This document shows, piece by piece, positions 1 to 15,696 of a stretch of DNA of 23,782 nt. This DNA comes from a virus: the IMG/VR virus record IMGVR_UViG_3300033146_006520, positions 1 through 23,782 of that record, one strand, 5' to 3'. The position numbers and the translations under genes are program-made. The stretch's first letter is position 1, and each line of letters opens with the position of its first letter. The notes beneath the pieces are model-generated. The model worked only from the letters and a program-made list of their open reading frames with translations. It was not told where the DNA came from and searched no databases.

Positions 1-1520
1 TTGCGAGTTTGTTTTTTAGCCGGCTGCTGTTTTGGTTGTTGTGCCGGTGGCTGATTTACCGGCTGTTGTTGCGGTGGCTGTTGAGGATTTTCTTCTGCCG
101 GCAGTTGATTTGCTGGAGGCGTTCCAGGTAAAGGCTGTTGATCCGGCTGTTGTTGTGGTGGTAATTGCTGTTGTGGTTCTTCTTCTTTTTTCTTTTCTTC
201 TTCCTCGGCGATCTCTTCCATCTTGGAAGTAGGTGCACCGATAATATCCATCAGCCAGGTTTTTTGCTCAATATCAGGTTCATGCTTTCCTTTCTGCACA
301 AAATCCAAAAATATCCCTGCTGCACGATATTCTTGTTCTTTACTCAATTCTTTAAATTTAATTTCCGCTTGAGCATCTTTGCCAAAATTTAGTTTCGTCA
401 ACGGATGAATAATGCGCCGATTAATAAGCGCAGTTAGTTCTTTATTCAGATTACGCATTACAGATAAAAATAAATTGAATTGCACATCGCCCATCTTGCC
501 GCCGAGACCGCCGGACGTATTCTGTGCGCCTGACATACCAAGCAAATCCGGCATTAATAGAGCACGTGCAATCATTAAGTTGTGCTTATTTATCGCCAGA
601 TCATACGCATCGCCAAAATTTGTTTTGCCACCATGCTCTTCAATTTCAAAATCTTTCGAAATAATCATAGAGGCTTTTGCTTGCAAATTTTTCAAAGCCT
701 TTTCAAAAACATCAAGAGTTTCATCATCGTTACTTGTAGCAGGAAATTTACCGACAAAGAAAGGCATGGCAACGCGTTCTAACCCGATGTTCCAAAATTT
801 TATGATATTATCTTTCGACCAATAAGAACGGTAGACGCTGATATTGAGATCAGAATTGCCATAAGGATTGCCAAACTCGCCCTGATAAACATAGAGCAAA
901 ACTTTTTCTTTCGGGATTTCAACTGTAGTTCCTTTGCTATCCCATTGCAAAATTTTAGAAAGATTGCCAAGATCATCAACATGAAGTTCGATCGAATGTG
1001 GTGGAACGGTTTTTAATTTTTTCAAAATCCAGTAAGGTCGATTTAGACCGGTAACAGTTTCTGAACTTAAAATTATTTCTGATAAACTGAAACCGTAATC
1101 AAATGCAGATAATATCTGGTAAAGTGTATTATCAAAAGTAACGCCATCATCATCAGAAAAATTTTCGCGCAAAGAATTTTCCCAAAAAGTTTTTACTTTT
1201 TCATCTTCAGTTTCAATATACCAGCCTGAACCTAATACGATGTACTTTTTAAATGCCAGAACAGCATGTACTTGATCATCTTCGCGAATTTTATCAAATA
1301 AATCGTAATTGCCACGCTTTTGATATAACTGCGCAGGATTATAAGGCTGGAGTTGAGAATTAGAATATAAAACGGACGTAACCGAAAGTAAGTCTTTTTT
1401 CAGAAGAGCTAAGCGTAGTTTTTGCCGCTGTTCTTCTGAAGAAACACTTTCGCGCGTATTCTGATAAATATGTTTATTGCTACTTGAAAAAAAGTTTTGG
1501 AAAAAAGAAGGCCAACGCAT
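1..1520 (-). CDS. Phage portal protein, Mu gp29/DUF935-like (3' end off window)
   Basis: Portal proteins form the dodecameric ring at the capsid vertex through which DNA is packaged. Reading from ATG at 1520 the frame stays open for 506 codons to the window edge, so the C-terminus is missing. Family-like features are the stretch GEFGNPYGNSDL followed by a Trp-rich helix, then GLERVAMPFFVGKFP, which matches the DUF935 pattern of a YG-containing loop and an 'E..G.P..VGK' segment; then GMSGAQNTSGGLGG. The last ~75 visible residues change abruptly to an EEEKKKEEE stretch and a Pro/Gln-rich tail (QQQ/PPQQQP units). AAGGAG sits 10 nt upstream of the start. It follows the large terminase after a 130-bp gap that holds one small hairpin (CTTGAT/ATCAAG). 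Portal identity is by motif memory, supported by the terminase context. Confidence 0.85.
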   Translation of the reverse strand, partial: MRWPSFFQNFFSSSNKHIYQNTRESVSSEEQRQKLRLALLKKDLLSVTSVLYSNSQLQPYNPAQLYQKRGNYDLFDKIREDDQVHAVLAFKKYIVLGSGWYIETEDEKVKTFWENSLRENFSDDDGVTFDNTLYQILSAFDYGFSLSEIILSSETVTGLNRPYWILKKLKTVPPHSIELHVDDLGNLSKILQWDSKGTTVEIPKEKVLLYVYQGEFGNPYGNSDLNISVYRSYWSKDNIIKFWNIGLERVAMPFFVGKFPATSNDDETLDVFEKALKNLQAKASMIISKDFEIEEHGGKTNFGDAYDLAINKHNLMIARALLMPDLLGMSGAQNTSGGLGGKMGDVQFNLFLSVMRNLNKELTALINRRIIHPLTKLNFGKDAQAEIKFKELSKEQEYRAAGIFLDFVQKGKHEPDIEQKTWLMDIIGAPTSKMEEIAEEEEKKKEEEPQQQLPPQQQPDQQPLPGTPPANQLPAEENPQQPPQQQPVNQPPAQQPKQQPAKKQTR

Positions 1521-1650: not shown

Positions 1651-3177
1651 TTACCAATCGGCTTTCGCACTAACACGATCACCGACGCTAGAAACTTTTG
1701 CACCACGCCGCACACAAGTAAGGCCATAAACTGCATACAAAAAAGCATCTGCTTCATCCGGACTGCCGGCACCAGTACGCGCTTTATATTCATCTTTTGA
1801 TTCGATCACCATTAAGCCTTGCTTATAAGTATATTGACGATTAGTTAACTGCGCGAACATATCGCCAGTATCTTCAATACCAATTTTTCTTTCCTCAATC
1901 AGTTCTGATGCACGTTTAAAAAGTTCTGTTACAAGATCTTTGCAAGTGTCGGCGTATTCTGAACTTACTGCCTCATTAAAGCCCACACCATATATTTGAG
2001 GCCTCCAATGCGCACCGCGGAAATGATCGCGTACCATATCAAAAACGCCACCGCCTAATCCGATAATATCAATAACAACTATCTGATAATGATCACGTTT
2101 GATTAAATAGATCAATTTATTTGCTGTTGTCACAAGATCCTGACCGTTATAACGCTCTTTGTAACACTCCTTCCAATCCTTAACACCAAAAATCACTGTA
2201 TCATCATCACCATAACGCGCCACATCACACGCTAAAACAGCTGGTCCCTTGCGTGGCTCGATATTCTCGTTGCGACATGCTTCTAAATCGGCAAGACCGA
2301 TCAAACTATTAGAAGCTTTTGAAGGAAATTGCGAGAGTACGCGCGAAGTAAAAAGCGGGCTATTTACGCCCCAGCGCTTCATACGATCCACCGCCCACTT
2401 AGGCGAGGTCAACGCTGGGAATGGATACTTCATCAATCGGAATTTTCTTTGCTGTTCTTCTTCAGGTAATGTTGCAAGTTCTTTTAACTTCTCTAATGAC
2501 GTAATTCCATTTGCAACAAAATTGGGATTTTCAAAAATATTTAAAACGATGCGTTTATTTGCTGTGTTTTGAAAACCGCGGTAAAAGTCTCCGGAAGAAT
2601 CGACTGGGTTACCTATGGCAAGTAGATGAGAGTTAGAAGAAGTTAAAAGCGTTCTTATTCCTTCCCATACTGCAGAATTTACAGCAGGACCTTCATCAAG
2701 AACACCTAAAAAATCTGTTGCGTGATAACCTGTAATGCGACTACTTACCTCCTCACCTTTTTCAATTTTGGGAGAAAGTCCTACTGCGAACCAGTCTTCG
2801 TCTAACTTCAAAAAAGTTTCGAGCGGCATAGGCACGCGTATATTTGATTTTTCTAGAATACGAATTAACGGCGATTTTTGCCATATGCGTCTGATCTCTG
2901 CCCATAATAATAACTTTACTTGCGCCCAGCCAGGCGCACTAGTAACGATTTTTGAATTAGCGAAAACAAAAAGAAAAGTTAAAACACAAAGCGCTGCAGT
3001 AAAAGTTTTGCCGGCACCGTGATACGAACGAACATAAGTTTCAGGCTCGAAAATTACAGACTCAATTATCTGCTCTTGCTGTTTATAAAGTCTATAACGC
3101 TGCGGCAAAAATAGTGAGTAAGTAGCAAGTAAAGGATCTTGTTTCCATTTCTCACGTTCTTTCGCGAGTTCATTCAT
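1651..3177 (-). CDS. terL: Terminase large subunit
   Basis: ATPase-nuclease motor that packages DNA into the prohead. The 508-residue length is typical. N-terminal ATPase: Walker A SYHGAGKT at residues 51-58, Walker B FLGVLDE at 156-162 with the catalytic Glu, and the coupling motif AIGNP at 187-191. C-terminal RNase H-like nuclease: VLACDVARYGDDD with D318, IVVIDIIG with D370, and GSPDEADA near 471-478 supplying the remaining acidic metal ligands. All key residues are present, so it should be active. It overlaps the small terminase gene by 8 bp (ATGAATGA-type junction) and precedes the portal gene, the classic packaging order. Confidence 0.95.
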   Translation of the reverse strand: MNELAKEREKWKQDPLLATYSLFLPQRYRLYKQQEQIIESVIFEPETYVRSYHGAGKTFTAALCVLTFLFVFANSKIVTSAPGWAQVKLLLWAEIRRIWQKSPLIRILEKSNIRVPMPLETFLKLDEDWFAVGLSPKIEKGEEVSSRITGYHATDFLGVLDEGPAVNSAVWEGIRTLLTSSNSHLLAIGNPVDSSGDFYRGFQNTANKRIVLNIFENPNFVANGITSLEKLKELATLPEEEQQRKFRLMKYPFPALTSPKWAVDRMKRWGVNSPLFTSRVLSQFPSKASNSLIGLADLEACRNENIEPRKGPAVLACDVARYGDDDTVIFGVKDWKECYKERYNGQDLVTTANKLIYLIKRDHYQIVVIDIIGLGGGVFDMVRDHFRGAHWRPQIYGVGFNEAVSSEYADTCKDLVTELFKRASELIEERKIGIEDTGDMFAQLTNRQYTYKQGLMVIESKDEYKARTGAGSPDEADAFLYAVYGLTCVRRGAKVSSVGDRVSAKADW

Positions 3178-3772
3178 CTTCCTCTTCTTCCAAGATAAAG
3201 CGATTACTTTCTATTAACTTCGTCTGCTTTCTACGCTCATAACCTTCGCGCAAAAGATCTGCTAGCGTTTGATCTAAGCCATGTACTGTATGCTGTTCTA
3301 TTTGATCGCGCCAGCCAGCGCGATTTTTGAGCCAAAACATTGCAGCACCTAACCAAGACTTTTCATAATGATCTGGATCAGCAGCAACTTTAAATAACGA
3401 CGTTGTTACTCGTACAATACCTTCGCTCAAGCCTTTTTCGCATTCTTCAAAAATTTTTTTGAGATCAGGATTAGCGTCTAAACGGTCTTGATTAAATTGC
3501 CGGCGCGAGAAGCCAAGGAAATTTGCAATTGTAACCTTATCCACGCCTATAGAAGCTAAGCGCTTGACATCGCTTAACCGGATGCGTCGCTCGCCTTGAT
3601 AAAACACCCAATCTTCGCCGCTGATCTTTTTCAACATAATGCCATGATTTTTTTTAGGTCTGCCGCGCTTGGTCTCAATAAAATCGATATCACTAACGCC
3701 GCGATCATGTTTGCGTCCATGAGCCCGACTGATCTTTCTGAGTGTTTTATACGCTTTGCGTCGATCGACCAT
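3170..3772 (-). CDS. terS: Terminase small subunit, with AT-hook-like motif
   Basis: DNA-recognition subunit of the packaging motor. The 200-residue protein has a basic N-terminus with KRGRPKK at about residues 35-41, which resembles an AT-hook core (RGRP), then a helix-turn-helix region (VTIANFLGFSRRQF, about 80-93) and a helical segment ending in FWLKNRAGWRDQ, a pattern common in small terminases. The tail is acidic (EEEEDE). The start is placed at ATG 3772 because AGGAGG (3782-3787) is 9 nt away; the in-frame ATG at 3781 would touch the ribosome site directly. The gene overlaps the upstream methyltransferase by 26 bp and the large terminase by 8 bp, so it is translationally coupled to both. 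Confidence 0.85.
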   Translation of the reverse strand: MVDRRKAYKTLRKISRAHGRKHDRGVSDIDFIETKRGRPKKNHGIMLKKISGEDWVFYQGERRIRLSDVKRLASIGVDKVTIANFLGFSRRQFNQDRLDANPDLKKIFEECEKGLSEGIVRVTTSLFKVAADPDHYEKSWLGAAMFWLKNRAGWRDQIEQHTVHGLDQTLADLLREGYERRKQTKLIESNRFILEEEEDE

Positions 3773-5102
3773 ATGTAACATCCTCCTGACATACTAACCA
3801 GCCCTTTACATTTAGTACTTCTGGTATCGTTGACGGATATATGGCTATCAACTGTCGTGCATAATGATCTGCCATCGATATATCTTTACGATGATAAGCA
3901 GCGATACGGAATAAAACATTTAATGCAATCGGATTAGCAGGATCAGCTTGCAAAACTTTCAAAAGAATTTGTTCTGCAAGTCTTGTATTATTGTCAAGAG
4001 TTTTTTCTGTATTCGGTTCACCCCAATTAAAAAAAACATTTGCGGCAAAATGAACATCAGCATGCAGATTATTAAAAATCTTTTTTACACGATCGTAAAG
4101 TTCTCGTTCACGTTTTATATCTTCAACAATTTCGCGCTGCGTTGATAGGATTAAATACGCATCAAGATAACGCGGATAAATACCGATTGCAGTCTCGCAA
4201 AGCTCTAGCATTTGCTGCGGTGTAATCTGTGGAGAAGTCGCTTTCTTCAGAACATCCATAGCTTGCTTTTGCGTTTGCAAAATTCTTTCTACTTCACGAT
4301 AATCGTCCGCGCTTTCAATCGTACCTTCACTTGTCTTTTTACTCAAAGTTGCATAACCATATACATAATCATCACGCTTAAAAATTTCAAAACCAACTTT
4401 TTTTAGAAGATTATCAAACGATCTTTTTGAAAAAACATTATGATGATTGAGATGATAAAGTTCTTCAAACTCCAGACATGCTTTGCCTGATACTTCGCGC
4501 AAATCACAAAGATAATCCGGAACAGCAATGTATAACGTGCCGTCATCTTTCAAAACACGCTTTACCTGTCGCAAAACTTCAGCCGGCCTAGTTACATGCT
4601 CAAGTGTGTGATACAGAATAACTAAATCAACAGATTTTTCTTCCAGCTGTTCAACTTTATCAATTACAGAAATTTTTTGAGCTCGTTGAGCATAACGAGC
4701 TAAACTTTCAGAATATTCAATGCCGTAAATTTTGGCATCAGGAAATAGACCGCGGATAGAACCAAAAGAACAGCCAATATCTAAAATGGAAAAATTCTCC
4801 TTTTCTTGTTGTGCGCGAAGTATGAAATCGTTTGTCAAAAAGTTGATATGAAAATAAATTTTTTTAGTTGCCTGCGCAATCATTTGCGATGTTACTATTG
4901 GCCGACTTTTGCTGTAACGTTTTTTTAGTTCTTCTTCACTCCAGCGCGGAGTATAAGTTAAAAAGCCGCACTCTTTGCAGACCTTAAAACCAATCTCTTC
5001 ATCAAAAATAATATTTGCATCAAACCAATATTCCTTGTTGCGTAAATAGTCCAGAGAATGCCATTCTTTCGAATTACAAATATCGCATGTGTGTTCGCTC
5101 AT
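3747..5102 (-). CDS. Zinc-binding SAM methyltransferase with TPR-like C-terminal half
   Basis: Class I SAM-dependent methyltransferase, 451 residues. N-terminal Cys pairs C6-x2-C9 and C42-x2-C45 form a likely zinc site, as in methyltransferases of sugar and O-antigen clusters. SAM motif I is ILDIGCSFG at about 106-114; an acidic residue follows in YGIEYSES, and LYHTLEHVTRP plus DDGTLYIAVPD are typical of the Methyltransf_23 fold. Residues from about 270 onward are helical and repetitive (AIGIYPRYLDAY, ILLKVLQADPANPIALNVL), consistent with TPRs. Start ATG 5102 has GGAG at about 10 nt; the TTG at 5111 touches the ribosome site and is rejected. It is last in the cargo run and overlaps terS by 26 bp. 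The substrate is unknown; a sugar or glycan is inferred from neighbours. Confidence 0.85.
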   Translation of the reverse strand: MSEHTCDICNSKEWHSLDYLRNKEYWFDANIIFDEEIGFKVCKECGFLTYTPRWSEEELKKRYSKSRPIVTSQMIAQATKKIYFHINFLTNDFILRAQQEKENFSILDIGCSFGSIRGLFPDAKIYGIEYSESLARYAQRAQKISVIDKVEQLEEKSVDLVILYHTLEHVTRPAEVLRQVKRVLKDDGTLYIAVPDYLCDLREVSGKACLEFEELYHLNHHNVFSKRSFDNLLKKVGFEIFKRDDYVYGYATLSKKTSEGTIESADDYREVERILQTQKQAMDVLKKATSPQITPQQMLELCETAIGIYPRYLDAYLILSTQREIVEDIKRERELYDRVKKIFNNLHADVHFAANVFFNWGEPNTEKTLDNNTRLAEQILLKVLQADPANPIALNVLFRIAAYHRKDISMADHYARQLIAIYPSTIPEVLNVKGWLVCQEDVTYGRSTQSV

Positions 5103-5125
5103 GTTTTTCAATCTCCTTTTTATGA

Positions 5126-6007
5126 TTATATTTTAAAATCAGAATAAAAACACGGAATATCACGCCGAAGCAGCCAATAATAAATATATTTTTCGAAATC
5201 CTCTGTCGATAAAATCTGATCTTTATCAGTTTGAGATAAAGTTGGATCATTCATAACTTCAACCATAAAATTTTTGACGCCTAATTGAAATGCTGCTCTA
5301 GTCATCGCTGCCACATCAATTCTTTGACCACAAGCATGACTCGGATCAAAACACAACTTTATATCAAAACGTTCAGTCAAAATCCGGAGCAAACCTTGAA
5401 AATCCGGCATCCATCGCCGCGCCTCTGAGCGGCAAAAAGTATTGATGCCGCGCTCGATGATGACAGGCTCATAACCATACCTTGCTACACAGATATCATG
5501 TATACCGATAATTTCTTCAATGGTCATGCCTGGTCCGCGTTTAATCAGAATTTCTTTCTTATCAATTCTAGGCAAGTATTTTAAGGCCTCCAGCAAATTG
5601 TAATTTTGCGAATTACGGGCGCCAATCCAAATAAAGTCAAAGTCGCTTAAATATTCAATCTCATCTGGAGTACTTATATCGCATCCAATTTTTATATTAA
5701 AAATATTTCTAACGTTTTGTAAGATTTTGACGCCGGCCTGTCGAATACCAGGTTTAAATTTTTTCAAATTTGTTCCACCGCCAAAGAGTTTGCAACGGAA
5801 TTTTATTTCAATTTTATTCAAAAAAGAACTTCGTGGAGTAGAATTTAATTTTGAAAAAAATTCTGCTGTTTTAAAACAATCTTCAATTTCTAATTGATTA
5901 TCATTCAGTAAACAAGGACCAGCATAAATTGTAATTTTATTTTTTTTTGCAAGTTGTGCAACGATTTCAGAAGAAGTTTCGGTTTCTGGAAAATTATTAT
6001 AAGCCAT
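5126..6007 (-). CDS. DAHP-synthase-family aldol enzyme (3-deoxy sugar acid synthase)
   Basis: Class I DAHP/KDO8P synthase TIM barrel, 293 residues. Such enzymes condense phosphoenolpyruvate with an aldose phosphate. Visible motifs: YAGPC with metal ligand C32, IGARNSQNYNLLEA (128-141, close to DAHP synthase IGARNMQN), LIKRGPGMTIEE with K156, ERGINTF (185-191), CFDPSHACGQR with H224, MVEV with E250, and TDKDQ with D261/D263. All four metal-ligand types are present. The usual GGAFKPRTSP phosphate-binding loop is replaced by RCKLFGGGTNLKKF (71-84), so the aldose substrate may differ from erythrose-4-phosphate. No other shikimate gene is nearby, while a sugar cytidylyltransferase is, so a role in an activated 3-deoxy sugar is inferred. 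Its ATG lies just beyond the TAA of the upstream gene. Confidence 0.85.
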   Translation of the reverse strand: MAYNNFPETETSSEIVAQLAKKNKITIYAGPCLLNDNQLEIEDCFKTAEFFSKLNSTPRSSFLNKIEIKFRCKLFGGGTNLKKFKPGIRQAGVKILQNVRNIFNIKIGCDISTPDEIEYLSDFDFIWIGARNSQNYNLLEALKYLPRIDKKEILIKRGPGMTIEEIIGIHDICVARYGYEPVIIERGINTFCRSEARRWMPDFQGLLRILTERFDIKLCFDPSHACGQRIDVAAMTRAAFQLGVKNFMVEVMNDPTLSQTDKDQILSTEDFEKYIYYWLLRRDIPCFYSDFKI

Positions 6008-6008
6008 T

Positions 6009-6305
6009 TTAGAACTCTCTCCTTTTTAACTGTGTGTGAACCTTCCGGTACCACGCGTTAAACTCATCTGCACGCGGACCGAACTTTTGAATCAATCCGC
6101 GAGAATATAATTCTTTCTCAATTTTAGCCTGTTTGCGCAAAATATCAAGTAAAACTGTTTCTGGCAAAATTGTTCCAATTTTTTTGCCCTCATTACGTAA
6201 CCATTGACAAAGGGCTTCATAAAGATTGATTAATGCACGGTCAGAAATTATTGGTAATTGCAAAACGAATTTTTCTAAACTTATTTTGATAAGGTCTTGT
6301 GCCAT
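6009..6305 (-). CDS. Hypothetical helical protein in the cargo operon
   Basis: 98 residues from ATG 6305 (MAQDLIKISLEKF). GGAG lies 11 nt upstream of this ATG; a GTG at 6314 sits only 2 nt from it and is less likely. The protein looks all-helical and charged, without cysteines pairs, signal peptide or membrane segment. I do not recognise a family. The gene begins inside the last 25 bp of the SDR gene and ends one base before the DAHP-synthase-like start region, so it is tightly coupled to both and probably serves the same pathway, perhaps as a small partner subunit (inference). Confidence 0.7.
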   Translation of the reverse strand: MAQDLIKISLEKFVLQLPIISDRALINLYEALCQWLRNEGKKIGTILPETVLLDILRKQAKIEKELYSRGLIQKFGPRADEFNAWYRKVHTQLKRREF

Positions 6306-7171
6306 TCTACACACTGCTCCATTCCGTGGCTAAAAGAAATTTTTGGTTGCCACTTGAAATATAATTTTGCTTTTTCCCCACTGATCAATTGACGATAGAT
6401 TTGACCAGGTCGTTGCTCAACGTGTTTAACGTTTGCTTTTTTGCCAGTAATATTTCGAACTGTACGCACAACATCATTCATGCTTATTTCTTCATCACCT
6501 AAAACATTAAAAACCTGAATATTATTCGTCACTGAGTCCTTATTTTCTAAAATAAAATCGCATGCCTTAATAATCGCAGCAGCAACATCAGTGACGTAGA
6601 TAAAACGTCGCGTCTGCTCGCCATCACCGTGAATAAGAATTTCTTCGTTATTTAAAATCTTGCGAATGACAATGTCGGTAAAAAGTGTATCGCGCATTTT
6701 CGGTCCATAAAAAGTTCCGAGTCGTAAGATAATTGCCTTCAAAAAGCCCGCACAATTAAGCGCGTTTTCACCTGCGAGTTTACTCCATGCGTAAGTTTCT
6801 GTCGGCCGCGGCATTGAGTCTTCGTCTGTAAGTTTACGTAATGATTGATTGCCATACAGACAACAAGTCGAGATATAAACGAGTGGAATTTTTAAAATCG
6901 AGCAAATACGTGCAATAAAGAAAGTTCCGAGAACATTCACCTTAAAATTTTTTTCCAGATCATTATCTGACTCATACAGATCTGCAACTGCTGCAGCATG
7001 TACGACTACATCAGGCTTTTGCTGCATGCAAAAAAGAATAAAAGCATCTTGCGATAAAATATCGCGGCCATCGCGTAGATCATACGAAAAAATCTCATGC
7101 CCAACTGCTCGCGCTTCTAACAATAAATTAATTCCAAGAAAGCCTATTGCTCCAGTAACTAAGATTTTCAT
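6281..7171 (-). CDS. NAD(P)-dependent sugar epimerase/dehydratase, extended SDR
   Basis: Extended short-chain dehydrogenase, 296 residues, a normal length for nucleotide-sugar epimerases, dehydratases or reductases. The Rossmann signature TGAIGFLG (G7, G10, G13) opens the protein; VVHAAAVAD (56-64), YISTCCLYG with T102, and the catalytic pair Y127-x3-K131 in YAWSKLAGE follow. HGDGEQTRRFIYVTDVAAA matches the substrate-binding part of GalE/RmlB-like enzymes. The active site is complete. Its ATG overlaps the stop of the cytidylyltransferase-glycosyltransferase gene in an ATGA arrangement. The exact reaction cannot be told from sequence alone. Confidence 0.9.
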   Translation of the reverse strand: MKILVTGAIGFLGINLLLEARAVGHEIFSYDLRDGRDILSQDAFILFCMQQKPDVVVHAAAVADLYESDNDLEKNFKVNVLGTFFIARICSILKIPLVYISTCCLYGNQSLRKLTDEDSMPRPTETYAWSKLAGENALNCAGFLKAIILRLGTFYGPKMRDTLFTDIVIRKILNNEEILIHGDGEQTRRFIYVTDVAAAIIKACDFILENKDSVTNNIQVFNVLGDEEISMNDVVRTVRNITGKKANVKHVEQRPGQIYRQLISGEKAKLYFKWQPKISFSHGMEQCVEWHKTLSK

Positions 7172-8538
7172 TTGACTTCTATGCCCTCCCTCTCAAGTCG
7201 CTCTCTGACGATCTGACGCTTTTTATCATTTTCCGGATCAGTTTTTTGACCTGGATGTCTGCGGTAATGCCATAATGCAGAACGAATTACAGTAGTTGAA
7301 TATAACTTTTCGAAGCGATGCAAAAATTCATCACCTTCAAAGTATTCCAAACCATCGCGATATTTAATCTCATTGACGCATGCTTTGCTTAACAAACAAC
7401 ATGCAGGATGTTTTTTAAATCGATTATTTTCAGGCAAAATTGTTATTCCTGAATTTTCATCATCTTTAAATTCATTATAACCTGTAAATACACCTTTTAT
7501 TCTTGGTTCTGATTCGATTTTTTTCAGCATCTCTTGCAGCGCATACGGCGCTAAAATATCATCAGCATCAAGTCGTAAAATATATTTCCCACGCGCATTT
7601 TTTAAAGCACGATTGCATAGAGTTGGCAAGCCAAGATTTTTTTCATTTACAAAAACTTGGCAACGTTTACGTAATTCAAACGAACTTTGTGTTAAGAATT
7701 TCATGATCTGTTTTACGCTGTCGTCGGTTGAATTATCGTCCCAGATGTGTAATTCCCAATCCTGGAACGTCTGCGCAAAAACAGATGCAATTGCTTCCAA
7801 GACATATTTCGATTGATTGCAATTAGCGATATACACAGTAACTTTTGGCAATGCGTTAATCGCAAGCAGATGACGATTACGCTTGATGTAATGGATCACA
7901 TCAAGAATTTTGTAATCGTGCGGAAGGTTAGAAAGTACCGTGCGGATTAAAAGCAAGTCCTCCGGATAATCCAGAGTAAAGCGAAATGGGAACTGATAAT
8001 TTGCTTCAGGAAAATACTCTGTAAACTTAAACTCATCAGTTTTTAAAAGATACGAAATAAATTCTATTGGTTTATCACCCACCTTTTTTACGATTTTGCG
8101 CAGCGCATCCATACGAATAACTTCTGCAGCAAAGCCTTCCGGACACGTGCCCATGTAGACGTAGTCATAATCGTTATTGATGCAAAAGTTTACTTGTCGA
8201 CGTAAGAGCATCTGATCAATAAAAAGATCATCAGCTGTTACGCGAATAATATAATCCCATTGCTTTTGATTACCGACTGCAACTAATCGATGCAATGGTG
8301 ATTCATCTTCACCGCGATAAATTTCAACGGGAATATTGTCTTCTTCAACTGCACGCACAATTTTGTCATTCTTCTGCGACTTTGGAATAGCGAGAACGAC
8401 GGGGAAAAATTTATTCGAAATGATCACGTGTTCAAGCAAGATTTGCAGCGCGCGTTTATTTCCGATACGCCGCAATATCTTGTTGGGTAATCGTTCTGAG
8501 TCCACTCTTGCAGTAATGCAGATTCCGATCTTTTTCAT
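7168..8538 (-). CDS. SpsF/NeuA-like cytidylyltransferase fused to GT2 glycosyltransferase
   Basis: Two-domain enzyme, 456 residues. Domain 1 (about 1-225) looks like the SpsF/CMP-sugar cytidylyltransferase group: ICITARVDSERLPNKIL (6-22, the nucleotide loop), IYRGEDESPLHRL (73-85) and IIRVTADD (97-104). Domain 2 (about 231-456) is a GT-A family 2 glycosyltransferase: VTVYIANCNQSKYVLEAI, WDDNSTDDS (266-274) and LRLDADD (321-327) with the DxD metal site. The fusion suggests that activation of a sugar and its transfer, or transfer of a related residue, are coupled. The start at 8538 has GGAG 9 nt away; an ATG two codons upstream (8544) is only 3 nt from it. It is 18 bp downstream of the radical SAM gene and overlaps the SDR by 4 bp. 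Confidence 0.88.
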   Translation of the reverse strand: MKKIGICITARVDSERLPNKILRRIGNKRALQILLEHVIISNKFFPVVLAIPKSQKNDKIVRAVEEDNIPVEIYRGEDESPLHRLVAVGNQKQWDYIIRVTADDLFIDQMLLRRQVNFCINNDYDYVYMGTCPEGFAAEVIRMDALRKIVKKVGDKPIEFISYLLKTDEFKFTEYFPEANYQFPFRFTLDYPEDLLLIRTVLSNLPHDYKILDVIHYIKRNRHLLAINALPKVTVYIANCNQSKYVLEAIASVFAQTFQDWELHIWDDNSTDDSVKQIMKFLTQSSFELRKRCQVFVNEKNLGLPTLCNRALKNARGKYILRLDADDILAPYALQEMLKKIESEPRIKGVFTGYNEFKDDENSGITILPENNRFKKHPACCLLSKACVNEIKYRDGLEYFEGDEFLHRFEKLYSTTVIRSALWHYRRHPGQKTDPENDKKRQIVRERLEREGIEVK

Positions 8539-8556
8539 ACTCATTTTCTCCTTTAA

Positions 8557-9609
8557 CTATTTTTTGTAACTCATGAAACTAGAACATTTTTCGCATACAG
8601 GCAAAAAATCAAAATCATTTTTTTGAAGTTGCGAAATTATTTTTTTACGCCAGTTTGAGTTCACAATATTTTGCATGCTATCTCTTATAGCAAGTTTGCC
8701 CAAAGTTAGACTGCCATGTTCAAAATAATTCAGACAGCATGCATGCACTTTGCCATTAGCACCAATCACAATTCTTTGCGATGGCTGCTTGCAATAACGG
8801 CGCTTTAATTTACCTTGCCGCCATAACTCGTAATAACTTTTTTCTTTGTCTGCAAGTTCAGAATTATTTCGTGGCTGAGCAGGTTTTGAATTAAATTCAA
8901 GATAGTCAAGTTTATTTTTAAATTCTTTGATTTCACCTAAAGACGCTGAAAGTTTTGTCAAAAGCAAATTTGTTTTAAGCATAATCTCAAAAAAATTATC
9001 TGTCTCACTTTCCGGAATTGTACGACGCTGAATGACAAGTCTTTTCTTTCTTGGATCAAAATTGTCAATCAACTTTGCCAAATTTTTTGTGACTTCATCC
9101 AAGTAAGCCGGATAACGTAATTTTTCATACAACTCCGATTTTATTGTATCAAGAGAAACACGGATTTCTGTAAAATATTCCAAATTTTCTTTTGAAATCT
9201 GAAGTCGCGAATTTGCCAAGTTAGTATTTACTATCACATCCAAAAAGCCGTACTCTCTTGCAGCTTTAGCAATCTCCATTGCAAAACATGGTGTGCAACA
9301 GAAAGAATCTCCACGCCAATTTAATTTTATCGAACGAAAGCCAGTTTTATAAGCCTCACGCAAGATTATAAAAATTACTGGACTGATCTCTTCTTCCGGA
9401 GAAAGATTACGCCAAGTTTTTGTTTGACGAAAACAGAAAGGACACTTGAGATTGCAAAGGGTGGTTAGTTCAAGATCGAGATGCACAGGCCTATGATCAA
9501 ACAAGGCAGGGAAATTAAACTTCAATCTGTATAAAATCCACTGAAAACTTTTTTTTGAAAACCCATAAAACTTAAATCCTCGCGTATACTCTTTGAGTAA
9601 TCTTAGCAT
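8557..9609 (-). CDS. Radical SAM protein with SPASM-like C-terminal cluster domain
   Basis: 350 residues. The radical SAM 4Fe-4S motif C52-x3-C56-x2-C59 lies in TTLCNLKCPFC, followed by LNWRGDSF, a plausible GGE-like SAM contact, and VIVNTNLA. The C-terminus has RYCKQPSQ, HACCLNYF and PVCEKCSSF, the cysteine layout of a SPASM/twitch domain that holds extra iron-sulfur clusters. Radical SAM-SPASM proteins tailor peptides, sugars or other carbon centres; the product here is not predictable. It is the first gene of the cargo run, with AAAGGAG 11 nt before its ATG and a weak promoter-like site 31 nt upstream. Being in one unit with sugar genes, it may perform a sugar dehydration, epimerisation or C-methyl-type step (inference). 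Confidence 0.88.
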   Translation of the reverse strand: MLRLLKEYTRGFKFYGFSKKSFQWILYRLKFNFPALFDHRPVHLDLELTTLCNLKCPFCFRQTKTWRNLSPEEEISPVIFIILREAYKTGFRSIKLNWRGDSFCCTPCFAMEIAKAAREYGFLDVIVNTNLANSRLQISKENLEYFTEIRVSLDTIKSELYEKLRYPAYLDEVTKNLAKLIDNFDPRKKRLVIQRRTIPESETDNFFEIMLKTNLLLTKLSASLGEIKEFKNKLDYLEFNSKPAQPRNNSELADKEKSYYELWRQGKLKRRYCKQPSQRIVIGANGKVHACCLNYFEHGSLTLGKLAIRDSMQNIVNSNWRKKIISQLQKNDFDFLPVCEKCSSFMSYKK

Positions 9610-9639
9610 AACAGTAACTGCTCCTTTCTCGAGAGTAGG

Positions 9640-9668
9640 AGTATAAAACTTAAACTTTTAAAAATAAA
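9640..9668 (-). promoter_or_regulatory. Weak promoter-like site before the cargo operon
   Basis: TATACT (-10, 9640-9645) with TTTATT 17 bp upstream (9663-9668). The -10 is good and the -35 poor. It would start an RNA about 25 nt before the radical SAM ATG, leaving room for its AAAGGAG site. In a very AT-rich gap such matches can arise by chance. Confidence 0.25.
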
Positions 9669-9699
9669 AAAACTTTTTTTCTTTCTAAAACTATTCTTT

Positions 9700-9724
9700 A
9701 AAAAAATCAAGAAAAAAATCTTGA
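9700..9724 (-). terminator. Weak AT-rich hairpin plus T run
   Basis: On the minus strand TCAAGA, a six-T loop and TCTTGA are followed by about seven T. The stem is only 6 bp and A/T-rich, so termination would be partial at best. It would separate the replication genes from the cargo genes. Confidence 0.3.
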
Positions 9725-9812
9725 AAATGAACGACACAAACGAGCACTAGTCTTGATTTCAAGAAGTGAAACTTTTGTTATAAGTAGTTCTTAGTATTCA
9801 TTGAAAAAATAA

Positions 9813-9841
9813 TTGACTTACTTTTCTAAAAGTAGTATATA
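9813..9841 (+). promoter_or_regulatory. Plus-strand promoter-like site with internal operator-like palindrome
   Basis: TTGACT (9813-9818), a 17-bp spacer and TATATA (9836-9841). The spacer is almost filled by TACTTTT-CT-AAAAGTA (9819-9834), an inverted repeat where a dimeric repressor could block polymerase. It points rightward, against all genes, into a region with no plus-strand gene, so any product would be a noncoding or antisense RNA. Confidence 0.4.
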
Positions 9842-10043
9842 TATAAATTATTAATAAATACAAGCATATTAAGTACGTATTGAAATTCTAACTAAACAGG
9901 TCTTCAAAAAATTTTTTTGCTTTATTCCGGATTCCGGAAATTGAAATTTTAATCATCGCGAATCCCCTTCAAAAAAATCGTCAAAAAGTGGCTGTACAGA
10001 CCAACTAACGTATATGGTATAAAAAAGTAACTTTGCGCGAGAA

Positions 10044-10117
10044 TGCCGTTTATTTCTTAAAAAATTTTTGGCGGGTATACTTAATCATTTCTGCCGAGAA
10101 GTCGCAAATAAACGGCA
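10044..10117. repeat. Long-range 12-bp inverted repeat
   Basis: TGCCGTTTATTT (10044-10055) and AAATAAACGGCA (10106-10117) are perfect inverted copies flanking 50 nt. The enclosed part can add GGCGG/CTGCC pairing. No T run follows on either strand, so it is not a plain terminator. It could be a structured RNA, an operator pair or a recombination site. Confidence 0.65.
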
Positions 10118-10140
10118 CCCTCGTCTAAATTTAGGCCATT

Positions 10141-10440: not shown

Positions 10441-10821
10441 TTATTGGCCATGTATTTGAGCCAATCGCTCGAGATGCTTAATCTCGTTGCTTAAAAACAG
10501 CATGAATTTAAAATGCCGAACTTTACTCGGCTCTACTTTGGGATCGTTTTTATCTGCGTAAGCATACAGCCAACGCGAATATTCAGCCCAATAGATTTTT
10601 TTATTTTCCTCGAAGACTGATTTAAGCATTTTCAGTCTGCGCTCGCATTCGCAATCTAAAACCAAAAGTTTTGGTGCGGTGTGCAGTGGTGATATAAACT
10701 CACTTTTCTGCATGCCGCAGATAGAGCAAAAAACAGGCGGATCAGTAGGTTTAAGATTTTTTTTTGCACGCTCTAAAAGATTTTCTTTCTCAGAGTTCAG
10801 AAAAATTTTAATTGTCTCCAT
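10441..10821 (-). CDS. Small zinc-binding replication-associated protein
   Basis: 126 residues. A Cys set C32-x2-C35 (VFCSICGMQ) and C57-x-C59 (LDCECERR) resembles the zinc site at the N-terminus of phage DnaC-like helicase loaders, but no Walker A ATPase domain follows: the rest is a helical region (IYWAEYSRWLYAYADK, FKFMLFLSNEIKHLERL). It may be a stand-alone or degenerate loader module, or an unrelated zinc protein. GAGG lies 9 nt before the ATG and the gene overlaps the G39P-like gene by 14 bp, linking it to replication. Confidence 0.75.
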   Translation of the reverse strand: METIKIFLNSEKENLLERAKKNLKPTDPPVFCSICGMQKSEFISPLHTAPKLLVLDCECERRLKMLKSVFEENKKIYWAEYSRWLYAYADKNDPKVEPSKVRHFKFMLFLSNEIKHLERLAQIHGQ

Positions 10822-11272
10822 GACTACTTTCCTCTTCTAAGAGTAATCTAGAAAAATTATTTTTCTCAAGAAAATCACGATAATATTTCAAGAAATCTTT
10901 TTTGAGAAATAATAAATCACGATTAGACATTTCACGCAAGAAATCTTTTCCTCCAACGGCGTCAATTGCGTTATAAAAAACTTCGTCCGTTGGTTCTGGA
11001 ATAAAACTGCCGTCGATGTAATTAAAAAACTTTTTGCTTAATTCTGCTTCTGAGTTGTCTTTAAAAAATTCTGCATGTTCGCGTAGTTCCGCAATCGTTG
11101 GAAAAAATCTGCAATGCAACAAACAACGCCGCGTTGCTTGTAATAAAATTTTATCTGGCAGATCGTTGAGTAGTTCTTGATAAACCGCGACAAACTCATC
11201 CGTGGTTTGTTTATCCTGAAAAACACATGCAAGCATCGCGAGAGCTTTAATCACCGTCTTTTTTGATGCCAT
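10808..11272 (-). CDS. G39P-like replicative helicase loader/inhibitor
   Basis: 154 residues. The segment FVAVYQELLNDLPDKILLQATRRCLLHCRFFPTIAELREHA is the signature of the phage SPP1 G39P group: Tyr-x-x-x-Leu-x-Asp/Asn-Leu-Pro, a helix, then FFPTIAEL. G39P binds the DnaB-type helicase and hands it to the origin complex. Here it follows the initiator gene directly (26-bp overlap), the same logic as G38P/G39P in SPP1. The C-terminal half is charged and unlike anything I recognise. No helicase gene is in the window, so host or distal phage DnaB would be the partner. Confidence 0.75.
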   Translation of the reverse strand: MASKKTVIKALAMLACVFQDKQTTDEFVAVYQELLNDLPDKILLQATRRCLLHCRFFPTIAELREHAEFFKDNSEAELSKKFFNYIDGSFIPEPTDEVFYNAIDAVGGKDFLREMSNRDLLFLKKDFLKYYRDFLEKNNFSRLLLEEESSHGDN

Positions 11273-12592: not shown

Positions 12593-13066
12593 CTAACATC
12601 GTTCGAAATGTGCCAAAAAATAATCTAAATCAAATATTCCTTTTTTTCCTTCCCAAAAAATTCTTTTTAAAAGATCATCTTTTAGCCAGACCTCGCGGCT
12701 TCTGAACTCACTCCAGCTAAAAATTAGAAGCCGGTTTAGTCTTTTTTGACCTGGTTTTGTTTGTCGAATATTCAAAAAAAGAAACGTCGGAATATCATAA
12801 GTCTTTTCTAATTCATCCAGATTTTTTATCTGAATATCACGCATGTATTTTATTCCGAACGCTTTATATTCTCGCAGCATTTTACCTTCAATCGCGACGA
12901 ACTTATCATAAATCGCCGCAAAAATATCGCATGGTTTCGCAACATTAAAACGCATTTGTTTTACATCACCGAAATATGAAGTCGGCATATCCGGAATTTT
13001 ATAAGCATAAAAACCAAGTGCTTTTAAAGAATTTTTAATCTCGGTATTGAAAACTTTTTCACGCAT
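12593..13066 (-). CDS. RecU/Hjc-like PD-(D/E)XK nuclease, active-site copy
   Basis: 157 residues. The core CDIFAAIYDKFVAIEGKM places D47, E60 and K62 in the D...E-x-K order of PD-(D/E)XK nucleases; DIQIKNLDEL with Q79 follows, as in RecU-type Holliday junction resolvase-like phage nucleases. A Trp-rich C-terminus (FSWSEFRSREVWLKDDLLKRIFW) precedes a conserved GIFDLDYFLAH end. It is clearly paralogous to the product of 14478-14993, sharing N-terminus, QMRF, CDIFA-IY, REVWLK and GIFDL. A role in resolving recombination or replication intermediates is inferred. It is the last gene before the leader RNA. Confidence 0.75.
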   Translation of the reverse strand: MREKVFNTEIKNSLKALGFYAYKIPDMPTSYFGDVKQMRFNVAKPCDIFAAIYDKFVAIEGKMLREYKAFGIKYMRDIQIKNLDELEKTYDIPTFLFLNIRQTKPGQKRLNRLLIFSWSEFRSREVWLKDDLLKRIFWEGKKGIFDLDYFLAHFERC

Positions 13067-13339: not shown

Positions 13340-13570
13340 TTATTTATTTCTCAGATGATAGACTATTTCTGCTAACCAAATACTTCGATTAAATCGTTTA
13401 TAATTTCTTTCCCACAAAGAACAATGTTTTGCGCCCCATAGATACCAGTCAGGATGTTCTTTTGCTAATAGATCATAATCATGATATTTTTTCCACCACA
13501 TTAATCCTTGCCAACATGCCCCTACCCTTTCAGCTTCCTCTAATATTTGTTCCCACCATTTTATTTTCAT
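13340..13570 (-). CDS. Small Trp-rich protein coupled to the octapeptide-repeat gene
   Basis: 76 residues from ATG 13570, which overlaps the upstream stop as ATGA and has GAGG 7 nt away; an ATG at 13588 has no site. It contains many Trp/Tyr (KIKWWEQ, GLMWWKKYHDY, HPDWYLWGAKH, SLWERNYKRF). The pattern GACWQGLMWW...HPDWYLW looks like a short module that I recall next to or fused with repeat-solenoid phage proteins, but I cannot name it. Tight coupling suggests it works with the solenoid protein. Confidence 0.65.
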   Translation of the reverse strand: MKIKWWEQILEEAERVGACWQGLMWWKKYHDYDLLAKEHPDWYLWGAKHCSLWERNYKRFNRSIWLAEIVYHLRNK

Positions 13571-14421
13571 TGTTTTACCTCTGTCCATTTTCCTTCAAAA
13601 AACCTATACCGCTTTCCGGCCATTTCCTTGGTAACGATGCGGGAAACCACCTTAATTTTACCCCCTTTGTACCACCACCCCATCTGAATAGTATCAGTCC
13701 CAGCCTCCTGAATACTTCCATTGCCTGCCCTTTGGATACTCTTATTACCGGCCTTTTGGTTGCTATTGTGTCCCGCTTCCTGAGTGCTACCAAAACCCGC
13801 TTTTTGCGTACTGTTATTATCAGCTATCTGGATACTACGATTACCCGCCTGTTGATAACTATTACCACATGCCTCCTGAGTACTGTAGCTACCGGCTTTT
13901 TGTTTACTAAAACAACTTGCTTTTTGGATACTGTGACATTTTGCCTTTTGGGTACTGTAGATACTGGCAAACTGGGTACTGTTGTTGCCCGCAATCTGAA
14001 TACTAACGAATTTTGCCACCTGAATACTATCATTACCAGCTTTCTGCTTACTATTATTACCTGCTTTTTGATAACATCCATTCTCACCTATCTGTTTTAT
14101 ATAACTAACGTCAGTATTCTGTCCTATTATATGTGCTCCATACCATGCAGGCAATTCTTCTCTAGCTCTTTTTTCATCCACCTCAGGAACATACCACGGT
14201 GGTAGGTAATCCTGACCTATTTTATAAATCCACCTACTCAGTGGGGCATCATATTGTGGTATATAATTATTTGTTGGTGGCGCAATCTCTATTCTGACAA
14301 AATCCGGCTTGTTTGTTCTATCGTTTAGCTTATACTGTTCTATTATTTCCTCGTGGGAATTAGTTCCCGGTAACCACAACACTTTGTCTTTTGTTAACAC
14401 GAAACTTGCTGGTCTACACAT
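13567..14421 (-). CDS. Octapeptide-repeat solenoid protein, ice-nucleation-like repeats
   Basis: 284 residues. Residues 1-111 form a distinct N-terminal domain (MCRPASFVLTKDKVLWLP, SHEEIIEQYKLND, VRIEIAPP, WIYKIGQDYLPPWY, KRAREELPAWYG); this head recurs, as far as I recall, in uncharacterised phage proteins with variable repeat tails. Residues 112-247 are 17 units of 8 residues, consensus A-G-x-x-S-x-Q-x (AGFGSTQE, AGHNSNQK, AGNKSIQR). The pattern is close to the AGYGSTQT octapeptide of bacterial ice-nucleation proteins, which form a beta-solenoid. A short C-terminal cap (WWYKGGKIKVVSRIV, FFEGKWTEV) closes it. There is no signal peptide. AAAGGAG lies 7 nt before the ATG. Structure is inferred, function unknown. 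Confidence 0.8.
   Translation of the reverse strand: MCRPASFVLTKDKVLWLPGTNSHEEIIEQYKLNDRTNKPDFVRIEIAPPTNNYIPQYDAPLSRWIYKIGQDYLPPWYVPEVDEKRAREELPAWYGAHIIGQNTDVSYIKQIGENGCYQKAGNNSKQKAGNDSIQVAKFVSIQIAGNNSTQFASIYSTQKAKCHSIQKASCFSKQKAGSYSTQEACGNSYQQAGNRSIQIADNNSTQKAGFGSTQEAGHNSNQKAGNKSIQRAGNGSIQEAGTDTIQMGWWYKGGKIKVVSRIVTKEMAGKRYRFFEGKWTEVKQ
13681..14088 (-). repeat. 17 coding 24-bp repeats (octapeptide units)
   Basis: In-frame 24-bp period encoding 17 octapeptides, residues 112-247 of the solenoid protein. Ser at position 5 (Thr or Gly in two end units) and Gln at position 7 are nearly invariant, while Ala-Gly at 1-2 is relaxed in the middle units (AKFV, ASIY, AKCH, ASCF, ACGN). DNA copies have diverged, so this is a protein-level rather than recent DNA-level repeat. 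Confidence 0.85.
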
Positions 14422-14477: not shown

Positions 14478-14993
14478 TTAATCAAATTCATCAAAACAAC
14501 TTCCGCGATCAAAGAAAAGAAAGTCATTATGATCGATAAAAGGTTCTAAATCAAAAATTCCATTTTCCGCTTCGCAATATTGTTTTTCCAATCTTTTCAT
14601 CAGATATTCTTTTAGCCAGACTTCACGGTCTTTAAATTCGTCCCAAGTGTAAAATATAAATCGATTGTTTTTTTGACCAAAAAGTTTTTGCTTAAAAGCC
14701 AAAAAAACAAAAGTTGTGACATCATATTTTTCTAACAAATTCAAATTTCTTATTTGAGAACCTCGCATATTTTTAATTCCAAACGTTTTAAATCTTTGCA
14801 AAAATATTGTTTTAATTGCAACGAAACGGCCATAAATCGAAGCGAAAATATCACAAGTTCTAGTGACTTCAAACCGCATCTGTTTTACCTCATTATTTTT
14901 TTGCGAAGTTGATAAATCTGGAATTTTATAAGTATAAAAACCTGATTTTTCTAAAGACTTTTTTATTTCTGCAATGAAAGTTTTTTCATTCAT
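14478..14993 (-). CDS. Degenerate paralog of the RecU/Hjc-like nuclease
   Basis: 171 residues from ATG 14993; GAGG is 8 nt away. It aligns with the 12593-13066 product throughout (IKKSLEKSGFYTYKIPD, VKQMRF, CDIFASIYGRF, FKDREVWLK, GIFDLEPF). The catalytic block reads VAIKTIFL where the paralog has VAIEGKML, so the Glu and Lys of E-x-K are both lost (K61 and I63), while D48 remains. The reading frame is intact and well started, so it is not a simple pseudogene: it may be a regulatory or DNA-binding version, or a dimer partner of the active copy. It overlaps the upstream repeat-protein stop by 8 bp. Confidence 0.75.
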   Translation of the reverse strand: MNEKTFIAEIKKSLEKSGFYTYKIPDLSTSQKNNEVKQMRFEVTRTCDIFASIYGRFVAIKTIFLQRFKTFGIKNMRGSQIRNLNLLEKYDVTTFVFLAFKQKLFGQKNNRFIFYTWDEFKDREVWLKEYLMKRLEKQYCEAENGIFDLEPFIDHNDFLFFDRGSCFDEFD

Positions 14994-15696
14994 ACTTTTT
15001 TCCTCGTTTCTTTTTTTTAGAATGATAACCTCTTTTTGTCTTGATATATACGTCATGCCAATACCAGATCTTATACCAATACTCACCATCGTCATATTCA
15101 ATTGCCGGTCCGCCATCATCTCTATGTCTCTCATCATGTCGATACCACTCTCGTGTACATCCATCCCCAGAGATAACCGCAGGAGCACCGACTCTATCAA
15201 GTTCTCCTCGCGCGTTATGCCAATAACGAGTTCCATCTGCTTCTTTTACAGCTGGTCCGAAAGGATTATATGGTATGTCATTTATATACCAAAAATAGTC
15301 ACGTCGCTTGCCTTTGCCGTATATAGATGCTGGTCCGCCTAATCTATGTAATTTCCCTTTAAAAAACCACTCTTCTGTGCTATCAGTTTTAATTAGTGCT
15401 GGTGTTGTCAAAGAATGTAATTCGCCTTTTTTATTGAATTTTAAAAGTTTATATCCACTTTTCAGCATCATTTTCTGACATTTGCCAGCCATGATGTCTT
15501 TAGCAAGTCCTGGCGGGATGGAAGGGTAAGGGGATTCTTCTTCTTTACCACCTTTTATTTTCCAAATTTTTCTGATGAGTTTAAATCGCTTTGCTACTGT
15601 AAATTTTAGTCCATGTTGTTCTATCTGCTCATCAGTAATCCAATAGCATTTACCATCGTCAGTCTCTATCCAAGCAGGAAAAGACAAACCGCTCAT
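14986..15696 (-). CDS. W-x-x-G / GPA repeat protein
   Basis: 236 residues. Residues about 93-215 contain five units of ~24 residues of the form LHRxGGPAxxxxDGTxxWxxNG: LHSLTTPALIK, LHRLGGPASIYG, PYNPFGPAVKEADGTRYW, LDRVGAPAVISGDG, RHRDDGGPAIEYDDGEYW. Repeats with HRxDGPA and W-Y-x-x-G are common in phage and bacterial proteins of unknown function and have a MORN-like beta-hairpin look. The N-terminus repeats part of the theme (FPAWIETDDGKCYW). The C-terminus is very basic (KKKKRGKK). No signal peptide. GGAGG lies 11 nt before the ATG. Likely a binding scaffold; the ligand is unknown. Confidence 0.75.
   Translation of the reverse strand: MSGLSFPAWIETDDGKCYWITDEQIEQHGLKFTVAKRFKLIRKIWKIKGGKEEESPYPSIPPGLAKDIMAGKCQKMMLKSGYKLLKFNKKGELHSLTTPALIKTDSTEEWFFKGKLHRLGGPASIYGKGKRRDYFWYINDIPYNPFGPAVKEADGTRYWHNARGELDRVGAPAVISGDGCTREWYRHDERHRDDGGPAIEYDDGEYWYKIWYWHDVYIKTKRGYHSKKKKRGKKYE

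Follow-up and report, generated by a model that had tools for sequence, protein, structure and literature searches.

A conserved six-gene cassette in a small phage lineage that may make an activated ulosonic acid for glycosylation of the virion

Introduction

The DNA considered here is a phage fragment of 23,782 nucleotides (IMG/VR record IMGVR_UViG_3300033146_006520, analysed in its entirety and referred to below as the window), the left end of which cuts the portal gene. On its minus strand lies a cassette of six genes, which encode a radical S-adenosylmethionine (SAM)/SPASM protein (P0001), a fusion of an SpsF-like cytidylyltransferase and a family 2 glycosyltransferase (GT2; P0002), an extended short-chain dehydrogenase/reductase (SDR; P0003), a small helical protein (P0004), a phosphoenolpyruvate (PEP)–aldose condensing enzyme of the family of 3-deoxy-arabino-heptulosonate 7-phosphate (DAHP) synthases (DAHPS) and 3-deoxy-manno-octulosonate 8-phosphate (KDO8P) synthases (KDO8PS; P0005), and a SAM-dependent methyltransferase (P0006). 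The cassette occurs in the same order in three phages, and in two relatives of this phage a protein that shares a domain with Maf, the glycosyltransferase of bacterial flagellin, is encoded a short way upstream of the tail tube gene. These observations can be brought together in one model: the cassette would make and tailor a 3-deoxy-ulosonic acid activated with cytidine monophosphate (CMP), and the Maf-like enzyme would attach this sugar to the tail tube. We give this full model a probability of about one half.

Conservation of the Cassette with the Packaging Genes

The six genes are tightly packed (from 9609 to 3747): neighbours overlap or stand a few to about 25 nt apart, with no gap or overlap above about 35 nt. 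They run into the genes for the small terminase (terS), the large terminase (terL) and the portal. An earlier note, made from the letters of the window, had described six open reading frames (ORFs) in this place, order and strand, abutting terS; this description holds, and the order recurs in two independent relatives. Relatives were sampled in IMG/VR, in GTDB contigs and in the Planctomycetota, which gave three cassettes (that of the window included) and two Maf-like genes.

The first relative, IMGVR_UViG_3300035698_005042 (G001), is a viral contig of 39.8 kb found by a scan with P0005. It has a direct terminal repeat of 127 bp, which closes the assembly. Read across this join, the genes stand in the order radical SAM protein, cytidylyltransferase–GT2, one extra ORF, SDR, P0004-like protein, DAHPS-like synthase, methyltransferase, two small ORFs, terS, terL and portal. 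The second relative, L007, is a contig of 6.35 kb found by a profile scan of genomes and binned in a metagenome-assembled genome (MAG) of the Phycisphaerae (bin G002). Its order is radical SAM protein (cut by the contig end), cytidylyltransferase–GT2, SDR, P0004-like protein, a small Zn-ribbon ORF, DAHPS-like synthase, methyltransferase, a DUF5681 ORF where terS stands in the others, and the beginning of TerL, which is 56% identical to TerL of the window over the first 55 residues. Thus, a search for the same six-gene order beside terminase genes, as suggested in the earlier note, finds it in both. The protein at the terS position of L007 (5821-6171) is unrelated to TerS though TerL is orthologous, which suggests a swap of the small terminase, with the cassette and TerL staying in place. 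IMG/VR profile scans with A1, A5, A7, A8 and A10 yielded nothing beyond G001 except a single distant TerL (L009, 23%); single-protein viral scans with P0002 and P0008 gave no matches, the query peptides probably being too specific.

Among the three copies, the cassette proteins are pairwise 43–66% identical, in the same range as TerL (60%) and TerL and portal taken together (56–60%). In all six genes the second codon position is best conserved, followed by the first and then the third, which implies selection acting on the proteins. It is practically certain that the conserved cassette is real: a chimera or other assembly artefact, which had been named as a possible objection, is ruled out by the same gene order in three independent assemblies. 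The reading as an ordinary cellular operon was rejected too, no such operon being present in the Planctomycetota, of which about 390 genomes were drawn twice.

The genes common to the window and G001 are the six cassette genes, terS, terL, the portal and, from the early module, a single ORF (10808-11272), whereas the remainder of the early region of about 14 kb is unrelated between the two. Thus, the cassette was inherited together with the packaging and head genes, and the earlier description of it as inserted cargo has to be given up. A recent insertion is not supported, as neither an empty site nor a cassette-free relative was found. The cassette is a conserved part of the core of this phage lineage. 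Its co-inheritance with packaging and head genes may be taken as an argument, not as proof, for a role related to the virion.

The Synthase P0005

P0005 matches PF00793 (DAHP_synth_1) with 84.5 bits, and its profile retrieves structures of type I DAHP synthases and, more weakly, of KDO8P synthases. The metal ligands C32 (in GPC), H224 (in D-x-SH), E250 (in EVM) and D261 are invariant in the three phage copies, as are the motifs of the PEP site (GAR, IKR and ERG). The KPRT loop, which is kept in the solved structures and in the cellular homologues with an alignment covering the loop, is replaced by GGGT in all three phage copies. In DAHPS, this loop helps to bind PEP and the phosphate of the acceptor. 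Given this role, the loss of KPRT suggests a different, perhaps unphosphorylated, aldose, and for the same loss P0005 is not filed here as a DAHP synthase. There is no phosphatase gene among the six genes of the cassette.

The phage copies are 57–66% identical to one another, and with the family profile the copy in bin G002 scores 505 bits vs at most 88 for ordinary Planctomycetota DAHPS; the same bin also holds an ordinary DAHPS homologue (contig C22). With the KDO8P_synth equivalog model P0005 reaches 31.3 bits, below the cut-off of 314, which allows a likeness in manner of working only. Judged from these scores and motifs, P0005 belongs to a distinct subfamily, the aldose substrate of which is probably different. 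In the phage collection no DAHPS-like synthase matched over 80% of the length, and the literature searched gave no report of phage genes for a DAHP synthase, a sialic acid synthase or CMP-Kdo. Structure prediction, recommended earlier as a check on the active sites, was of partial help: the best Foldseek matches of the P0005 model are still DAHPS/KDO8PS (E about 1e-9, (beta/alpha)8 fold), but the model is of low confidence (pLDDT, the predicted local distance difference test, is 55) and K73, a candidate substitute for KPRT, cannot be placed on it relative to the missing KPRT lysine.

The Other Proteins of the Cassette

P0002 scores 50.9 bits with CTP_transf_3 (cut-off 22.6) and 101.8 bits with Glycos_transf_2 (PF00535), and its orthologues in G001 and L007 are 60–61% identical. 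The motifs ARxDSxRLPNK, TADD and LDYPEDL, which are those of sugar-CMP synthetases, are invariant, as are DDxS and LDADD; in the GT2 domain, D269, D270 and D326-x-D328 (DxD) do not vary. Over its full length, the N-terminal half can be aligned with the cytidylyltransferase 6oew. By these features, the N-terminal domain is classed as an SpsF-like cytidylyltransferase and is predicted to form a CMP-sugar.

P0001 has the SPASM domain in all three copies (37.3 bits in the window, above the cut-off there and in G001). The Radical_SAM score of the window copy (23.4 bits, E 7e-5) is below the cut-off of 29.5, whereas that of the G001 copy (52.5) is above it. The CxxxCxxC triad (C52/C56/C59) is present in the window and G001, and the L007 copy is cut before the triad; the orthologues (G001, L004:1950-2981; L007, 1-717) are 45–46% identical to P0001. 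Maturation of a ribosomally synthesized and post-translationally modified peptide by this enzyme was considered and rejected: no precursor-like ORF is present, and P0004 is a conserved helical protein.

P0003 matches PF01370 (129 bits) and phrog_540 (E 9e-56), with TGxxGFLG and YAWSK invariant. P0004 is 47–59% identical to the proteins in the same place in the two relatives; profile searches gave no family match, its three-helix model has no significant fold match, and no relatives were found outside the cassette. P0006 matches Methyltransf_23 (60.2 bits), and C9, C12, C45, C48 and DIGCxFG are invariant; it has no relative among 50,697 phage records. The tetratricopeptide repeats (TPR) ascribed to it earlier were not recovered, as none is found in the window protein at E<=0.01 and the G001 protein has one weak, sub-threshold match to TPR_14 (E=0.035). 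No clear transmembrane helix is predicted in any cassette protein.

Apart from these repeats and the sub-threshold Radical_SAM score of the window copy, the families first proposed for the six genes are upheld by Pfam. None of the enzymes falls in an unrelated non-sugar family, their families all being used in sugar work, and it is very likely that the cassette serves glycan work.

A Maf-Like Protein Beside the Tail Tube

A scan of the unassigned proteins of G001 revealed a protein of 342 amino acids (L005:3790-4818, minus strand) that matches PF01973 (Maf_flag10/MptE-like) with 74.8 bits vs a cut-off of 34.6. A second copy lies on contig L051 (4192 bp) of bin G002 (L051:9-1037, plus strand) and scores 93.4 bits vs the same cut-off of 34.6. 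The nearest NCBIfam model is PseD (E 7e-8, 31.5 bits, for G001; E 6e-15, 54.8 bits, for L051). As its cut-off is 670 bits and the match covers the central domain only, these proteins are called Maf-like and not members of PseD. Their only significant solved relative is 5mu5 (E 2.6e-5), the Magnetospirillum Maf. The Magnetospirillum enzyme has three domains, the central one of which (Maf_flag10) resembles the sialyltransferase Cst-II (PMC11339370). No relative of the Maf-like protein was detected in PHROGs or in the 50,697 phage records.

In both G001 and L051 the order is Maf-like gene, small ORF, tail tube (PF18906, Phage_tube_2), small ORF at the chaperone position, and tape measure. The identity between the two is 58–59% for the Maf-like protein, 58% for the tail tube, 36% for the ORF at the chaperone position and 23% for the tape measure. 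Contigs L051 and L007 have GC contents of 48.3% and 47.8%, and their tetranucleotide usage is nearer to each other than to that of other sampled contigs of the bin; such agreement would be expected if both came from one phage. In a set of 392 Planctomycetota genomes, the Maf-like protein (E<=1e-15) and the cassette synthase (E<=1e-30) each occur only in bin G002, in which no major capsid protein or portal was found on searching. The phage contigs C110 and C135 of this bin differ in composition from its other sampled contigs, which could mean that they come from a phage of the binned host or were binned wrongly; the bin is weak evidence for the host. The phage of the window presumably also has a Maf-like gene, beyond the left end of the fragment.

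Proposed Mechanism

The acceptor, the substrate and the chemical steps that follow are proposals drawn from families and motifs. P0005 would form a 3-deoxy-ulosonic acid by condensing PEP and an aldose, the latter probably other than erythrose-4-phosphate, and the SpsF-like domain of P0002 would couple this acid to CMP. Assembly or tailoring of the sugar would be the work of the SDR, the radical SAM enzyme and the zinc methyltransferase; a possible role of the GT2 domain is the addition of a second sugar. The Maf/PseD-like transferase would then attach the activated sugar to one of the virion proteins, of which the tail tube is the most likely, in much the way that Maf enzymes modify flagellin.

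The sugars that Maf enzymes attach to flagellin, by O-glycosylation, are nonulosonic acids activated with CMP; the Maf of Clostridium botulinum takes CMP-Kdo as well (PMC11339370). In the sps pathway of Bacillus subtilis, the cytidylyltransferase gene is needed for transfer of legionaminate, whereas the GT2 protein SpsA is not (PMC7439481). A cassette that supplies a CMP-ulosonic acid to the Maf-like protein is the most economical reading. The earlier note had proposed that the six genes build, activate, attach and tailor a 3-deoxy sugar. The ulosonic acid route, by a PEP-dependent synthase and an SpsF-like cytidylyltransferase, stands as likely, but the GT2 domain is a doubtful attaching enzyme, since SpsA is not required for the transfer of CMP-legionaminic acid in B. 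subtilis (PMC7439481). Overall, the cassette probably concerns an ulosonic acid.

The nearest parallel is flagellin glycosylation by Maf/PseD with the CMP-pseudaminic or CMP-legionaminic acid pathway (Campylobacter, Aeromonas and Clostridium; PMC11339370, PMC4065374). Common to both would be a PEP-dependent synthase and a cytidylyltransferase for a CMP-activated 3-deoxy-2-ulosonic acid (predicted for the phage), and a gene for a PF01973-domain transferase near that of a protein that forms a tubular polymer. The phage system differs in being phage-encoded, in its DAHPS/KDO8PS-like rather than NeuB-like synthase, in its short single-domain Maf (of predicted activity), in having the tail tube instead of flagellin as neighbour, and in the additional radical SAM protein, GT2 domain and methyltransferase. 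The legionaminic acid pathway of B. subtilis likewise encodes SpsF and SpsA together, and its sugar decorates a proteinaceous surface layer (PMC7439481); in the phage, by contrast, the two are fused, and the cassette has no NeuB, aminotransferase, acetyltransferase or hydrolase genes.

Several points weigh against the full model. PF01973 also covers the archaeal MptE pterin kinases, and the phage Maf-like protein consists of a single domain, without the N- and C-terminal domains of the flagellin Mafs. Only two copies of it were found; L051 and L007 are connected by bin and composition only. A long distance separates the Maf-like gene from the cassette, and since the window ends in the portal gene, a copy in the phage of the window would lie outside it. 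Adjacency to the tail tube gene does not prove that the tail tube is the acceptor. Moreover, the loss of KPRT could mean that P0005 runs a different reaction, and the GT2 domain, the radical SAM protein and P0004 have no assigned step in the scheme.

Alternative Functions

The earlier note had left the target as either the host envelope or the virion. Of these two the virion is likelier, because G001 has no recognisable integrase, flippase or cassette-linked membrane transferase and encodes a Maf-like protein next to its tail tube; we consider the chance of a virion protein as target somewhat better than even. If the cassette were instead to alter a glycan of the host envelope (lipopolysaccharide (LPS), capsule or S-layer) during infection or lysogeny, it could block superinfection or change the surface. 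Epimerase, GT2 and nucleotide-sugar genes are common envelope modifiers in phages (phrog_540 and GtrB-like families), and cyanophages carry LPS-type genes, e.g. S-SCSM1, with phage-borne epimerases and GT2 proteins like those found here (PMC9602691). However, those cyanophages are large myoviruses with fucose/LPS-type genes (PMC9602691), and the six-gene cassette beside the terminase was not found in the phage collection. The present cassette encodes no flippase, polymerase or membrane-anchored transferase, and its proteins have no clear transmembrane segment; G001, which is complete, has no integrase-sized unassigned ORF. The features of gtrABC-type serotype conversion are thus absent from the cassette and G001, the window being incomplete. 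The cassette was also co-inherited with packaging genes, not with early genes. An envelope function is therefore unlikely.

A little less likely still is that the GT2 domain glycosylates the capsid, with the Maf-like protein doing something unrelated, e.g. in tail assembly. Glycans are reported on the capsid and the tail tube of mycobacteriophages (Freeman et al. 2023, as cited in PMC12619734). In mycobacteriophage Corndog, an O-methyltransferase and glycosyltransferases (gp35–gp38) encoded among the structural genes, between those of the portal and the protease, have been proposed as capsid modifiers (PMC4351075), and the present cassette likewise combines a methyltransferase and a glycosyltransferase next to head and packaging genes. 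No ulosonic acid synthase or cytidylyltransferase has been described in that system, whereas in the present phages the set precedes terS, with a Maf-like protein as proposed transferase. CMP-ulosonates are not usually used by GT2 enzymes, and a GT2-modified capsid would leave unexplained why phages with a CMP-ulosonate-type cassette have a Maf/PseD-like protein.

Hypermodification of DNA bases with a sugar, as a defence against restriction, is very improbable. Glycosyltransferases and radical SAM enzymes are used by phages for this purpose and the cassette stands before the packaging genes, but the families found in the window and G001 include no nucleobase hydroxymethylase, thymidylate-synthase-like protein, base kinase or GT-B DNA glucosyltransferase, and the cassette has no DNA-binding domain. 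The least probable alternative, that P0005 is an ordinary DAHP synthase carried as an auxiliary metabolic gene to raise the supply of aromatic amino acids in the host, with the other genes as unrelated passengers, has in its favour that DAHP synthase is the best family match of P0005, but is contradicted by the loss of KPRT in 3/3 phage copies, by family scores far from those of cellular enzymes, and by its five partners, which recur in identical order in all three phages.

Layout of the Window

The features discussed above are listed in Table 1. The methyltransferase gene starts at the ATG at 5102, not at the TTG at 5111, and the P0004 gene at the ATG at 6305. Shine-Dalgarno-like stretches (AGGAG/GGAG) precede the genes for the radical SAM protein, the cytidylyltransferase–GT2 fusion, P0004, the synthase and the methyltransferase, with a weaker one (GGGAGG) before the SDR gene.

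Table 1. Cassette genes and adjoining packaging and head genes in the window.
Feature	Position	Strand	Basis and remarks
Radical SAM/SPASM protein P0001, 350 aa	8557-9609	-	Cassette gene 1; SPASM match, orthologues in G001 and L007
SpsF-like cytidylyltransferase (residues 1-230)–GT2 (231-458) fusion P0002	7168-8544	-	Pfam, orthologues, motifs
Extended SDR/nucleotide-sugar epimerase-dehydratase P0003	6281-7171	-	PF01370, phrog_540
Small helical conserved protein P0004, 98 aa	6009-6305	-	Same place in two relatives
DAHPS/KDO8PS-family PEP-aldose condensing enzyme P0005, KPRT to GGGT	5126-6007	-	Pfam, motifs
SAM-dependent methyltransferase P0006, N-terminal CxxC-x32-CxxC zinc motif	3747-5102	-	Pfam, invariant cysteines
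terS	3170-3781	-	phrog_309, E 5e-10; overlaps 3' end of methyltransferase gene; G001 orthologue 39%
terL	1651-3177	-	phrog_2, E 1e-23; 60% identity to G001
Mu-like portal, cut by window end	3-1520	-	Portal_Mu, 162.7 bits; 56-59% to G001

Before the first cassette gene is an AT-rich region of about 530 bp (9610-10140) without an ORF of at least 60 amino acids on the minus strand, which is probably regulatory. In the window, the RNA-family search gave no matches, and promoter-like matches were not above chance. Upstream of the cassette, the early region encodes DnaD/O-like replication, RecT, exonuclease, ParB-like and 3'-phosphoadenosine-5'-phosphosulfate (PAPS)-reductase-like proteins; at its early end (21421-23138, minus strand) the ParB-like gene overlaps the PAPS-reductase/DUF3440 gene, as an IbrB/IbrA-like pair.

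Two Holliday-junction-resolvase-like paralogues (12593-13066 and 14478-15236, minus strand; 53.5% identity) occur within this one phage, and a second pair consists of paralogues adjacent to each other (20571-20933 and 21010-21369, minus strand; 44% identity). An ORF of 284 amino acids (13567-14421, minus strand) has many short S-x-Q-x-A-G-x-x repeats and matches the ice-nucleation repeat weakly (E 1e-4, a score below the cut-off). In G001, a low-complexity tandem repeat (L004:3911-4184) gives MAMAMA or GNGNGN, depending on which of the overlapping minus-strand frames is read.

Significance

Glycosylation of virions and Maf-type glycosylation of flagellin are already known kinds of modification. 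Neither the collections nor the literature searched showed a small phage that combines an ulosonate-type pathway of its own with a synthase lacking KPRT and, next to the tail tube, a minimal Maf. Perhaps this phage family owns a flagellin-style glycosylation system, in which a dedicated pathway, built on a synthase that derives from DAHPS and has changed its specificity, would yield a new CMP-ulosonic acid, and a minimal Maf would decorate the tail tube with it; this broader claim is tentative, at somewhat less than even odds. If it is true, a small phage would itself encode the path that leads from PEP, in central metabolism, to an acidic sugar on its virion, and sialylation of bacterial flagellin would be linked to phage tails via a short, possibly self-contained system of protein glycosylation. 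The model names a donor, a transferase and a specific acceptor, and so makes the purpose of sugar genes in small phages testable. Further gains would be a minimal Maf suited to structural studies and a synthase with a predicted change of substrate specificity.

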